Source: Phycisphaeraceae bacterium
Lineage (GTDB): Bacteria > Planctomycetota > Phycisphaerae > Phycisphaerales > UBA1924
NCBI GenBank assembly: GCA_019636555.1
Contig: JAHBXH010000001.1
Coordinates: 1,708,928-1,772,927 of the forward strand
DNA: 64,000 nt
Direction: 5' to 3'
The translations under genes and the position numbers were made by a program. Under the pieces are notes generated by a model. It did not search any database, had not been told where the DNA came from, and saw only the letters and a program-made list of their open reading frames with translations. Of this stretch, positions 45,826 through 50,306 are shown one piece after another (positions within the stretch are counted from its first letter, which is position 1; the number at the start of each line of letters is the position of its first letter).

Positions 45826-46020
45826 TTACTCGCCCCAGTCTTCCTGCACTTCGGGAGCGAGTTCGAGGCGAACGGGGTCGAGGCCGGTCACTTCGAGCTC
45901 TGCGTTGCAATCGGGGCAACGAACGACTTCGCCCTGAAGCGGACGGCGCACAAACGGAACGTTGCCTTCGCATTCGGGGCAGTTTGTCGAGGCGGACGCG
46001 GTGGTCGGGGAGGCGGACAT
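45826..46020 (-). CDS. lysW: Amino-group carrier protein LysW
   Basis: 64 residues from ATG 46020, with AAGGAG upstream. A four-Cys zinc ribbon (Cys14, 17, 35, 38 in NCPECEGN...RCPDCNAEL), an acidic surface (LDPVRLELAPEVQ) and the hallmark C-terminus EDWGE. The terminal Glu is the attachment point for alpha-aminoadipate. It protects the amino group and presents intermediates to LysX, LysZ, LysY and LysK, all encoded downstream. It is the first structural gene behind the attenuator. Confidence 0.96.
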   Translation of the reverse strand: MSASPTTASASTNCPECEGNVPFVRRPLQGEVVRCPDCNAELEVTGLDPVRLELAPEVQEDWGE

Positions 46021-46061: not shown

Positions 46062-46094
46062 AAAAAAGCCGCGGGGTTTGGTTTTCCCGCGGCT
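46062..46094 (-). terminator. Intrinsic terminator in the lys operon leader
   Basis: On the minus strand AGCCGCGGG (46094-46086), a 10-nt loop, CCCGCGGCT (46075-46067), then a run of six T (46067-46062). It stands 41 bp before lysW with the promoter further upstream, so it can only act as a conditional (attenuating) terminator of the operon. Confidence 0.88.
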
Positions 46095-46177
46095 GCAAAA
46101 GCAGAGCGGGCCGGCAGTCGGCCGGCCCGGATACGTCAGTGGATCGAAGAGATCTCAACCGCGCGAAAGGGCCGCCG
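46086..46177 (-). promoter_or_regulatory. Attenuator RNA region with mutually exclusive hairpins
   Basis: Minus-strand segments. Segment 1 CGGCGGCCC (46177-46169) can pair, with one bulge, with segment 2 GGGCCGGCCG (46128-46119). Segment 2 can instead pair with segment 3 GCCGGCCC (46115-46108). Segment 3 with its extension CCCGC..CTGC (46110-46101) can instead pair with GCAG..GCGGG (46096-46086), which is the 5' arm of the terminator. So 1:2 favours 3:4 antitermination, while 2:3 frees the terminator. Pairings were read by eye, not folded. Confidence 0.65.
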
Positions 46178-46229
46178 ACAGGCTTTTTGCCTGTTTCGAT
46201 TTGCCCAATTTGCTGCTGGTGAGTGTCAT
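46155..46229 (-). CDS. Lysine-rich leader peptide of the lys operon
   Basis: 24 codons, ATG 46229 to TGA 46155. Residues 5-16 read SSKLGKSKQAKS, with Lys at positions 7, 10, 12 and 15, all encoded by AAA in an otherwise GC-rich region. An internal hairpin ACAGGC/GCCTGT (46194-46178) spans Lys12 to Leu17. Segment 1 of the attenuator lies at codons 18-21, just past the Lys codons, so a ribosome stalled on them leaves it free to pair. No strong Shine-Dalgarno precedes the ATG, the main weakness of the call. Confidence 0.7.
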   Translation of the reverse strand: MTLTSSKLGKSKQAKSLSAALSRG

Positions 46230-46259
46230 GCGCGTTCTATCGGCGAATTTCGGACGGCA

Positions 46260-46288
46260 ATACAAGGCGCGTTTCCCGCCGGGGTCAA
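46260..46288 (-). promoter_or_regulatory. Promoter of the lys operon
   Basis: TTGACC (46288-46283), a 17-bp spacer, TTGTAT (46265-46260) on the minus strand. The -35 matches consensus at five of six bases. A start near 46253 gives about 24 nt before the leader peptide ATG. It lies in the 369-bp divergent space shared with the PTS operon; no other feature is seen in the rest of that space. Confidence 0.6.
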
Positions 46289-46389: not shown

Positions 46390-47481
46390 ATGATCACCGA
46401 CTTTTTCAAACAACTCCGTCAGCATCTGCTCACCGGAGTTTCCTACGCCATTCCGTTTGTTGCCTGCGGCGGCATTCTGATTGCCGCGGCGTTGGCGTTC
46501 GCGCCTTCCAATCCCGAGTCGCACGCGCCCGATCCGAGCACCGTTCCGGCGCTGATGTTCCTGCTCAAAATCGGAGTGCTCTCGTTCAAGCTGATGCTGC
46601 CGATCCTGGCGGCGTACATCGCCTATTCGATCGCGGGAAAGCCGGGCTTGGTGCCGGGGGCGATCGGCGGGTTTTTGTGCAACGACCTGCGCGTGCTCGC
46701 GTTTTTCCCGCAGCCGGGAGAGAAGGAGTTGAGCGCCGGATTTCTCGGCGCAATCGTCGCGGGTCTGCTTGCCGGGTATCTCGTCGCGCTGATCAAGAAA
46801 GTGCCTACGCATCGGCTGATCAAGCCGGTAATGCCGATTTTGATTATCCCGATCGTGTCGTCGTTGATCGTGAGCGCGACGATGATCTTGCTGCTCGGCC
46901 CGCCAATCGTGGACCTTATGGACTGGTTGACGGTTCATTTAAAGGAGATGCAGACAGGAAACGCGATTCTGCTCGCAGCGGTGATCGGTGCGATGATCGC
47001 GTTCGACATGGGCGGGCCGGTGAACAAGGTTGCATTCTTCTTTTCGGCAGGTTTGATTGCGAAGGGGAATTTCCTGCCGATGGGGGCGTGCGCGGTCGCG
47101 ATCTGCACGCCGCCGCTCGGCATGGGGCTTGCAACGCTGCTCTCACGCCGGCTCTGGTCGGAAGAGGAGCGCGATTCGGGCCTCGCGGCGCTCGGCATGG
47201 GCACGATCGGGATCACGGAGGGCGCGATCCCGTTTGCTGCGGCAGATCCGCTGCGGGTGATCCCGTGCCTGATGGCGGGTTCGATGGTCGGGGCGGTGAT
47301 CGCGATGCTCGCTAGAGTGGGGAATCACGCGCCGCACGGCGGGCCGATCGTTCTGCCCGTGATCGACAATCGCATGATGTACGTGGTCGCGATCATCGCG
47401 GGGACGGTGACGACGGCGCTGCTCATCAATCTCTTGAAGTCGTTTTCGAAGCGGAAGGGTGCGCCGGAGGAACTGGCATGA
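46390..47481 (+). CDS. PTS fructose-type permease component EIIC
   Basis: 363 residues with about nine membrane helices. It starts FFKQLRQHLLTGVSYAIPFVACGGILIAAALA and contains IAFDMGGPVNKVAFFFSAGLI and GMGTIGITEGAIPFAAADPLRVIPCL, the hallmark loops of fructose/mannitol-class EIIC with the substrate-binding GITE motif. It imports a sugar (fructose or a relative) while EIIB phosphorylates it. It overlaps the EIIB gene by four bases. EIIC and EIIB are separate here, unlike FruA of enteric bacteria. Confidence 0.92.
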   Translation: MITDFFKQLRQHLLTGVSYAIPFVACGGILIAAALAFAPSNPESHAPDPSTVPALMFLLKIGVLSFKLMLPILAAYIAYSIAGKPGLVPGAIGGFLCNDLRVLAFFPQPGEKELSAGFLGAIVAGLLAGYLVALIKKVPTHRLIKPVMPILIIPIVSSLIVSATMILLLGPPIVDLMDWLTVHLKEMQTGNAILLAAVIGAMIAFDMGGPVNKVAFFFSAGLIAKGNFLPMGACAVAICTPPLGMGLATLLSRRLWSEEERDSGLAALGMGTIGITEGAIPFAAADPLRVIPCLMAGSMVGAVIAMLARVGNHAPHGGPIVLPVIDNRMMYVVAIIAGTVTTALLINLLKSFSKRKGAPEELA

Positions 47482-47777
47482 AGATCATCGGAGTGACGGC
47501 GTGTCCGACGGGGATCGCGCACACCTACATGGCGGCGGAGAATCTCGAGAAGGCGGCGAAGGCCGCGGGCCATCAGATCAAGATGGAAACGCAGGGTGCA
47601 ATGGGGATCGAGAACGAACTGAGCGCGGCGGACGTACGAAACGCGGATGTCGTGATCTTCGCCGTGGATATCGAGGTCGAAAAGAAGGAGCGATTCGACG
47701 GCAAGAAGGTCATCAAGGTCGGGGTCGCGGAGGCGATCAAGAATCCCGGCGCCGTGCTCGCCCGGGCGATCGGATAA
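47478..47777 (+). CDS. PTS fructose-type EIIB
   Basis: 99 residues, a complete single domain. MKIIGVTACPTGIAHTYMAAE holds the phosphocysteine Cys9 followed by the HT motif. It ends at KNPGAVLARAIG. It passes phosphate from EIIA to the sugar bound in EIIC. It overlaps EIIC by four bases and lies 27 bp before the fused phosphotransferase gene. Confidence 0.93.
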   Translation: MKIIGVTACPTGIAHTYMAAENLEKAAKAAGHQIKMETQGAMGIENELSAADVRNADVVIFAVDIEVEKKERFDGKKVIKVGVAEAIKNPGAVLARAIG

Positions 47778-47804
47778 GGCGAGCCTGCGCTGCGAGAGAA
47801 TCCC

Positions 47805-50306
47805 GTGTCCACGACTTTGAAATTCGCGTGCGACCTCAAACACGGGCTGCACGCCCGGCCGGCGAGCCTGATCGCGCAGATCGCGGAGAAAGCAAAGTCG
47901 CGCGTCCTCGTGAAGAAGTCGGGTGTTGCCGAGGCGGATGCGCGCAGCGTCCTCTCGGTGATCGCGCTCGATATCCAGCCGGGAGATGTCTGGGAAATCA
48001 GCATCGACGGGGCGGACGCGACAACGGTCTCGTCGGAGATCGACTCGCTGGTGCGCTCGCACTTCGGAGAAAAGGCCGGGGAAGACGGCGAGTTCATCGA
48101 GGCGCCCGCGCGGGTTCCCGCGGCACTCCAGCGCATGGGCGTACAGGTTGTTTCGGGCCGACCTGCTTCTCCTGGGATCGGGCGTGGGGCGGTGGTGCGG
48201 GTGCGTTCGCGTTCGCTCGAGCAGAGCCTTGCGGACCGGGCGGTCGAGAAACCCGAAGATGAATCGAGGCGATTTCGGCGGGCGATCGAGACCGCGGCGG
48301 ACGAAGTAGAGAGACGGTTGCGACGAGCCTCGGGCACGAGCGCGGAACTGCTCGCGGCGCACCGCCTGATGCTGAATGACTCGGAATTGAACGCGGCGGT
48401 CGAGCAGCGGATCGCCGATGGAACCGGCGCGGAGCGCGCGGTGGCGCAGGCAACGGAAGAGTTTGCGGACCGGCTCAAGGCCGCGAACAGCACGATCATC
48501 CGCGAGCGCGCCGCGGACGTGCACGATCTCGCGATCCAGATTCTGAGCGCGATGGGCACCGAGATCGGCGACGAGGTTCCGACGTTGACGGAGCCATCGG
48601 TCGTCATCGCGGATTCACTGACGCCCGGGCAGCTTCTCCGGTTCGACGCTTCCAAGCTCGCCGGATTGGTGCTGGGCGAGGTCGGGTTGACATCGCACGT
48701 GGTCATTCTCGCGCGATCGATGGGCCTGCCCGCAATCGTCGGTGCACCGAAGCAATTTCTTCGCGCGATGGCGGCGCAGCGCATGCTGGTCGATGGCGCA
48801 TTCGGGTTCGCTGTTGCCGATCCCGATGAACGCGTGCTCCGGCTCTATGGACTCGACGAACTCGCGAAGAGTCGGCGTGCCGAGTTTCTCGCTTCGTTCG
48901 GGACGATGGGCGGAAAAACGCGCGACGGCAAATCGCTCGAAATCGGCGCGAACGCGTCTTCGGCGCAGGATGTCGGGCGCGCGGTCGCGGGAGGGGCGGA
49001 CGGCATCGGGCTCTTCCGCACCGAATTTCTGTATCTGGGCCGGACCAAGGCGCCGACGGAAGCAGAGCTCTTCGAGACTTTTTTCGGTGCGGCACGCGCG
49101 GCGGGCGGAAGGCCGATTGTTTTTCGCACGTTCGACATCGGCGCGGACAAGCCGGCGCCGTTTCTGCACTTGCCTTTCGAGGAGAACCCTTTTCTCGGCG
49201 CGAGGGGCGCGCGGCTTTACCGACGGCACGCGACCCTTTTGCGGACACAGCTCAGGGCGATCGTCCGCTCTTCGGAAGTCGCGCCCGGAACCGTGCGGAT
49301 CATGGCTCCGATGATCACGACGGTCGAGGAAATGAAATGGTTTCAGGCGCAGGTGCGCGCGGTCGAAAAGAATCTCGCGAACGGCGGCTTCACTGCGCCG
49401 CCGTTGCAGGTTGGAATGATGATCGAGACGCCCGCGGTGGCGGCATCGGTCGCGAGCTTTGCACCTCACGCGGATTTCTTCAGTCTGGGGACGAACGACC
49501 TTTCACAGTACTGGTTTGCCGCGGACCGGGGGAACGGAGAAGTCGCCCCTCTCGCAAATGAACTCGAGCCTTCATTTGTACGGATGCTGCAGCGCGCGGT
49601 CAGCGACGCGCACGTTGCAGGGAAGTGGATCGGGATTTGCGGCGAGATGGCGTCGCGTACGGCGAATCTCGCGATTCTGCTCGCGCTCGGGCTGGATGAG
49701 ATCAGTGTTTCGGGCGTGAGCGGCGCGGAGATGAAGCACCGGCTTGCTGGACTCAGTTCTGACGAATGCAAATCGGCGCTGGATGCGGTGCTTTCGAATC
49801 CGCACACTCAGGGCGGCGAGTGGGCAGGAACACTTGGAGCGATGGGATCCCATGTGTCGCCGATCGCGGTCGAACTGATCCAACTCGAGTGCGCGGCGTC
49901 AACGAAAGAAGAGGCGATCCGCGAGATGGTCGGGATTCTCTACAGCGGCGGCAGAACGGACCGGCCCGGAGATCTCGAGGAGGATGTCTGGGCGCGCGAG
50001 GCGGTGTACTCGACGGGATTGGGATTCGGCTTTGCCGTCCCGCACTGTCGGACGAAGGCTGTTGGCTCGGTTTCGGTCGCGGTCGGGCGGCTGGCGAGGC
50101 CGATCGAGTGGGGCTCGAATGATGGGTTGCCGGTGCGACACGTGATGATGCTGGCGGTCCCGGATGGTGCGGATGCCAAGGCGCACCTGCAGGTGCTCGC
50201 GAAGCTGGCGCGGAAGCTGGTGCACGAGGAGTTTCGCGGAGCGGTGGAGAGAGTGAGCGATGTCAGGGGAATGGCGGAGTTGTTGAAGAGAGAGTTGGGA
50301 CTGTGA
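47805..50306 (+). CDS. Multiphosphoryl transfer protein HPr-EI-EIIA(Fru)
   Basis: 833 residues in three parts. HPr, about 1-90: FACDLKHGLHARPASL with active His16. Enzyme I, about 110-660: swivel His in GEVGLTSHVVILARSMGLPAIVG, PEP-binding FRTEFLYLGR and FFSLGTNDLSQYWFAADR, catalytic Cys in GICGEMASR. EIIA, about 685-833: active His in GFGFAVPHCRT. The entire phosphorelay from PEP to EIIB is therefore one chain. No fruK or regulator gene accompanies it. Order HPr-EI-EIIA differs from the EIIA-first FruB of enterics. Confidence 0.93.
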   Translation: MSTTLKFACDLKHGLHARPASLIAQIAEKAKSRVLVKKSGVAEADARSVLSVIALDIQPGDVWEISIDGADATTVSSEIDSLVRSHFGEKAGEDGEFIEAPARVPAALQRMGVQVVSGRPASPGIGRGAVVRVRSRSLEQSLADRAVEKPEDESRRFRRAIETAADEVERRLRRASGTSAELLAAHRLMLNDSELNAAVEQRIADGTGAERAVAQATEEFADRLKAANSTIIRERAADVHDLAIQILSAMGTEIGDEVPTLTEPSVVIADSLTPGQLLRFDASKLAGLVLGEVGLTSHVVILARSMGLPAIVGAPKQFLRAMAAQRMLVDGAFGFAVADPDERVLRLYGLDELAKSRRAEFLASFGTMGGKTRDGKSLEIGANASSAQDVGRAVAGGADGIGLFRTEFLYLGRTKAPTEAELFETFFGAARAAGGRPIVFRTFDIGADKPAPFLHLPFEENPFLGARGARLYRRHATLLRTQLRAIVRSSEVAPGTVRIMAPMITTVEEMKWFQAQVRAVEKNLANGGFTAPPLQVGMMIETPAVAASVASFAPHADFFSLGTNDLSQYWFAADRGNGEVAPLANELEPSFVRMLQRAVSDAHVAGKWIGICGEMASRTANLAILLALGLDEISVSGVSGAEMKHRLAGLSSDECKSALDAVLSNPHTQGGEWAGTLGAMGSHVSPIAVELIQLECAASTKEEAIREMVGILYSGGRTDRPGDLEEDVWAREAVYSTGLGFGFAVPHCRTKAVGSVSVAVGRLARPIEWGSNDGLPVRHVMMLAVPDGADAKAHLQVLAKLARKLVHEEFRGAVERVSDVRGMAELLKRELGL

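Follow-up and report, generated by a model that had tools for sequence, protein, structure and literature searches.

Lysine is the textbook case of an amino acid under riboswitch control, and attenuation may once have been proposed for the lysine genes of Thermus. The lysine riboswitch (L-box) controls lysine genes through a choice between terminator and antiterminator, but it binds lysine directly, without a leader peptide, and was not found here by Rfam. In the proteobacterial trp, his, thr, leu and phe attenuators the same choice depends on a leader ORF rich in codons for the end product, followed by alternative hairpins, an intrinsic terminator and the biosynthetic operon. Attenuators have been described for histidine, threonine and phenylalanine, and riboswitches for lysine and methionine (PMC1262725). 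As of 2010, leader-peptide systems were known from Proteobacteria and Actinobacteria only, to which Firmicutes were then added (PMC2965389). Two loci of Sinorhizobium meliloti are also close: trpL, an attenuator whose leader-peptide transcript is leaderless and starts at the AUG, but which serves tryptophan in an alphaproteobacterium, and SEP5, a small ORF with Lys codons before an aspartate-pathway gene that was suggested to encode a leader peptide, but which carries six Thr and three Lys codons, belongs to a different pathway and was reported with no structures analysed (PMC10117765).

The locus described here lies in a 64,000-nucleotide stretch of DNA (the window) from a Phycisphaeraceae genome (G000; 3.8 Mb, 95.6% complete). 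It very probably carries a ribosome-mediated transcription attenuator, responsive to charged tRNA-Lys, that governs lysine synthesis by the LysW-dependent aminoadipate pathway. It resembles the proteobacterial devices in all four parts and differs from them in that lysine would be the amino acid sensed, in the carrier-protein (LysW) pathway and in its occurrence in Planctomycetota and Chloroflexota. Unlike the trp/his type, moreover, the planctomycete leaders choose the rare AAA over the common AAG and several look leaderless, a second terminator is present in the window's genus, and tandem units occur in Chloroflexota. A preliminary description of the window had known of no such device for lysW operons, and we likewise found no lysine leader-peptide attenuator, for the LysW pathway or otherwise, in Rfam or the open-access literature.

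The features of the locus are collected in Table 1. The promoter, the leader ORF with its AAA codons and the 9-bp GC stem with six T that the preliminary description had read were all recovered. Its segments 1-4 were borne out as to pairing, but their numbering had to be changed, its segment 1 being the classical segment 2. Segment 2 pairs with GGGCCGGCCGAC, this 2:3 pairing being worth −21.8 kcal/mol in the window fold, and the competing proximal GC hairpin 3:4 (46129-46107) −19.9 kcal/mol, with its TTTT within 46104-46093. In the window's genus this first T-run is overlapped by a mini-hairpin, CTGC-TTTT-GCAG, at 46104-46093. The gene for fructose PTS IIC starts divergently at 46390 on the plus strand, and the leader region is therefore intergenic. 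The divergent PTS genes (46390-50306, plus strand) encode IIC, IIB and an 833-aa protein that resembles, as judged by eye, a fusion of HPr, enzyme I and a IIA domain.

Table 1. Features of the lysW leader region and operon in the window, and of the second leader in the same genome
Feature	Coordinates	Strand	Basis or remark
sigma-70-like promoter TTGACC/TTGTAT, 17-nt spacer	46288-46260 (46288-46283, 46265-46260)	minus	direct reading
leader peptide ORF MTLTSSKLGKSKQAKSLSAALSRG, 24 codons	46229-46155	minus	ORF reading
leader Lys codons, all AAA (residues 7, 10, 12, 15)	46211-46209, 46202-46200, 46196-46194, 46187-46185	minus	
segment 1 hairpin ACAGGC aaaaa GCCTGT, 1:2-like protector over last Lys codon	46194-46178	minus	−8.4 kcal/mol
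segment 2 GTCGGCGGCCC	46179-46169	minus	pairing with segment 3; homologous position in 40 loci
segment 3 CGGGCCGGCCGAC, 5' arm of proximal terminator	46129-46117	minus	pairing and folding
segment 4 GCCGGCCCG (46115-46107), then CTCTGC and TTTT	46115-46097	minus	folding
distal hairpin AGCCGCGGG/CCCGCGGCT, 9-bp stem and T6	46094-46062	minus	−18.1 kcal/mol
lysW (ATG at 46020)	46020-45826	minus	TIGR01206 above cut-off
lysX	45715-44792	minus	TIGR02144 above cut-off
lysY (argC-like), between lysX and lysZ	44795-43749	minus	TIGR01850 above cut-off
lysZ, [LysW]-aminoadipate kinase	43745-42924	minus	NF010659 above cut-off
lysK, [LysW]-lysine hydrolase	42927-41806	minus	NF003367 above cut-off
Lys leader MQILASKKGKSKRLKRPAIAFRA, five AAA codons (L130), upstream of the homoaconitase/dehydrogenase/homocitrate-synthase (hcs) operon	G000:C1 about 547160-547030		

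The genes behind the leader, lysWXYZK, were identified by NCBIfam families. Since G000 has no DapA, and no LysA above cut-off (the sole weak match lying inside a 734-aa frame), while homocitrate synthase scored above cut-off and a second, separate ArgB-family gene lies elsewhere in the genome, the operon most likely makes lysine, the amino acid whose codons fill the leader. A role in arginine or ornithine synthesis was rejected because of the separate ArgB-family gene and the absence of DapA and LysA.

We looked for leader ORFs (ATG start, at least three Lys in 12 codons, within 350 nt before lysW) in relatives, the named ones being Phycisphaeraceae and Phycisphaerales metagenome-assembled genomes. 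Such a short ORF with several Lys codons precedes lysW in 41 of 46 Phycisphaerae loci; 20 rounds of dinucleotide shuffling gave 2.35 loci on average and never more than 4, and the reverse strand gave 7. Ala-rich ORFs were also frequent (37 loci versus 17 on the reverse strand), which is expected of GC-rich frames. The Lys positions and AAA codons of the window leader are retained in L003, L005 and L006; between genera, the peptide sequence differs except for Lys. The choice of codon is strongly skewed, with 169 AAA to 15 AAG in 43 leaders versus 9 to 181 in lysX of the same loci (Fisher p=3e-75), that is, an AAA share of 92% in Phycisphaerae leaders and 5% in lysX. The genome has genes for both tRNA-Lys(UUU) and tRNA-Lys(CUU), from which, together with the AAA bias, we infer that the leader depends on the Lys isoacceptor least used by the coding sequences examined.

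Promoters were called by consensus alone. In about a dozen loci (L008, L015, L019, L021, L037 and others) the leader ATG follows 7-12 nt after the end of the best −35/−10 pair. The start site would therefore fall at the ATG or a few bases away, which suggests that these leader transcripts are leaderless or nearly so. In the window's genus the distance from promoter to leader ATG is 19-30 nt and no Shine-Dalgarno sequence is seen before this ATG, a weakness that the preliminary description had itself pointed out; the absence of a ribosome site may be accounted for by how close to the ATG the leader transcripts of several relatives seem to begin. The promoter hexamers and their spacing are kept in four genomes of this genus (the −10 being identical and the −35 near-identical to those of the window in L003, L005 and L006), and from this conservation a start downstream of 46155 appears unlikely.

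Between the leader and lysW, a hairpin followed by a T-run, the predicted intrinsic terminator, was found in 40 of 43 loci by a scan with some assignments by hand; in the remaining three the scan found none. Some of the T-runs lie 6-8 nt beyond the stem, which is atypical of intrinsic terminators. Segment 2 begins 0-12 nt beyond the last Lys codon in most loci and pairs with the terminator 5' arm more strongly than do shuffled spacers (mean z −2.3, 40 loci). As a partner, its own terminator also outranks those of other species (mean rank 0.19, 0.5 expected). Covariation was examined in a manual alignment of sixteen KAKDA-subgroup loci, with statistics that ignore relatedness. The 2:3 helix has 93% standard-pair cells and five doubly changed pairs, a value reached by 0.0005 of segment shuffles, and the 3:4 helix 94% and eight doubly changed pairs, a value reached by 0 of 2000. 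The 1:2 hairpin is 99% paired in this subgroup and varies too little for covariation; the window has a small hairpin at this place. Relatives thus keep the Lys codons and the alternative stems, with compensatory changes, a conservation whose absence the preliminary description had named as a refutation of its proposal.

The distal T6 hairpin, which had been taken for the terminator, is present in L002-L006 but is confined in such form to the window's genus, and the hairpin with homologues in relatives is the proximal one. A proximal-type hairpin with T-run occurs in other genera and in the leader of the hcs operon. Since this type is the only one present in most other genera and in the hcs leader, the proximal GC hairpin (3:4) appears to be the conserved terminator and the distal one a genus-specific addition; we rejected the distal hairpin as sole, ancestral terminator.

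Ribosome stalling was simulated by withholding from folding the RNA that a ribosome positioned at a Lys codon would cover, and computing equilibrium probabilities. In 21 of 37 loci a Lys stall abolished the terminator, which came back once the ribosome was placed at the stop codon, versus 1.8 for shuffled spacers; the number of such loci held at 20-21 whether the ribosome edge was set to 10, 13 or 16 nt. For the window, taking a transcript that ends at the first T-run, the probability of 3:4 was 0.97 with no ribosome, 0.88, 0.08, 0.07 and 0.53 with stalls on the Lys codons K1 to K4, respectively, and 0.99 once the ribosome had reached the stop codon. A Lys stall thus exposes in the model an antiterminator that excludes the terminator, the window flipping at K2 and K3. 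The probability of 3:4 remains high where the segment 1 hairpin can form (stall at K1, no ribosome). K1 is the first Lys codon met, and the value of 0.88 at this codon counts against attenuation. When the second hairpin was included, the K2 stall gave 2:3 together with 4:5 and a distal terminator of 0.22, which is the complete version of the switch that the preliminary description had drawn by eye. The distal T6 hairpin was opened in the model by the K2 stall only, other states retaining the distal terminator. At equilibrium, 3:4 stays at 0.77-0.99 in every stall state of the sister-species and hcs leaders, so that these would need co-transcriptional (kinetic) folding to switch.

The second Lys leader of the genome stands before the hcs operon. 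After its AAA codons comes CCGGCGA, which could base-pair with TCGCCGG, part of the 5' arm of a GC hairpin; TTGTGC-TTTT follows this hairpin. The leader is kept in the four genus members read. G000 contains exactly two copies of a DNA motif, GGCAAATCGAAANNNNNNAAA, one at the lysW leader and one at the hcs-operon leader, and six of the eight genus genomes have two or three each; the reversed control gave no match. The third match of G006 is on another contig and could be a duplicate produced by assembly. Outside the genus, no Lys leader was found before homoaconitase-like matches (49-56% identity), some of which are probably LeuC. In G020 and G057, of two other genera, a homoaconitase-like gene shares contig and strand with lysX at a distance of a few kb, and would fall behind the lysW leader. 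By this placement and the second leader of the hcs operon, the Lys leader follows the lysine genes. The trp/his-type logic that the preliminary description proposed is thus supported by the conserved Lys codons, the alternative stems, the compensatory changes and a second Lys leader.

Clear Lys leaders also precede lysW in fourteen Chloroflexota loci, where 23 leader-terminator units were scored (mean z −2.4 for 2:3) and where AAG is the main Lys codon of the leaders. Two units in series, each with its own terminator, are present in eight loci (L048, L049, L050, L053, L054, L062, L116 and L123) and probably also in L052 and L059. No Lys leader was found in most other Anaerolineales loci or in the f19 genomes of the same class. 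One contig labelled Woesearchaeota archaeon (L082) has a lysX 54% identical to planctomycete lysX, among Chloroflexota-like matches, perhaps through a binning error or transfer.

From what can be read in the DNA itself (the ORF, its codons, their conservation, the competing helices, the pathway context and the second leader) we propose the transcription start, leader translation, stalling, termination and lysine response as follows. RNA polymerase would start at about 46253 and a ribosome would translate the Lys leader. With plentiful lysine the ribosome would reach the stop codon and segment 2 would be masked or refolded, allowing the 3:4 hairpin to form and transcription to stop before lysW. 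If charged tRNA-Lys ran short, the ribosome would instead stall on the AAA codons and segment 2 would pair with segment 3, preventing the terminator and letting transcription run on into lysWXYZK. The T6 hairpin would act as an additional terminator in the window's genus.

Could the Lys ORF be incidental, and the terminator be controlled by a metabolite-binding RNA, some other kind of lysine riboswitch? Lysine genes elsewhere are under the L-box riboswitch (PMC1262725) and the leader region folds strongly. An L-box or T-box was rejected, since the window and ten related loci gave no match to these Rfam models. No other family matched at the gathering level in the same sequences either, no conserved core is seen beyond the Lys ORF and the short hairpins, and a riboswitch gives no reason for an AAA bias as steep as that between leaders and lysX; we therefore regard this explanation as very improbable. 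Equally improbable to us is a functional basic peptide, with hairpins that merely terminate a short transcript. The leader peptides are indeed basic, and similar ones stand before two operons, but it is the Lys codons and the segment pairing that are kept between genera and not the other residues, the ORF is positioned ahead of lysine genes, and a preference for AAA is not expected from peptide function.

Somewhat less remote, though still unlikely, is a lysine-sensing leader whose effect passes chiefly through Rho, RNA stability or translation of lysW, and not through an intrinsic terminator. The T-runs set 6-8 nt from their stems and the three loci where the scan gave no terminator would fit such control, whereas a hairpin with T-run in 40 of 43 loci, and an alternative pairing that competes with the terminator hairpin and not with the lysW ribosome site, argue against it.

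Judged by sequence, this is a conserved lysine attenuator of the trp/his kind, whose control logic is already known; what sets it apart is the amino acid, the pathway, the phyla, the choice of a rare codon, the apparently leaderless starts and the serial arrangement. More broadly, we think it likely that these leaders form a lysine regulon of ribosome-mediated attenuators in two phyla, with rare-AAA leaders in Phycisphaerae, near-leaderless in several, that guard each of the two lysine operons in genomes with a split pathway, and with two attenuators in series before lysW in Chloroflexota. A leader-peptide device in Planctomycetota and Chloroflexota would imply tight coupling of transcription and translation, which has hardly been examined in these phyla. 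The near-total use of AAA by leaders in genomes that otherwise use AAG would offer a clean natural case for one idea about attenuators, namely that they favour the codon read by the tRNA that is first to become uncharged.
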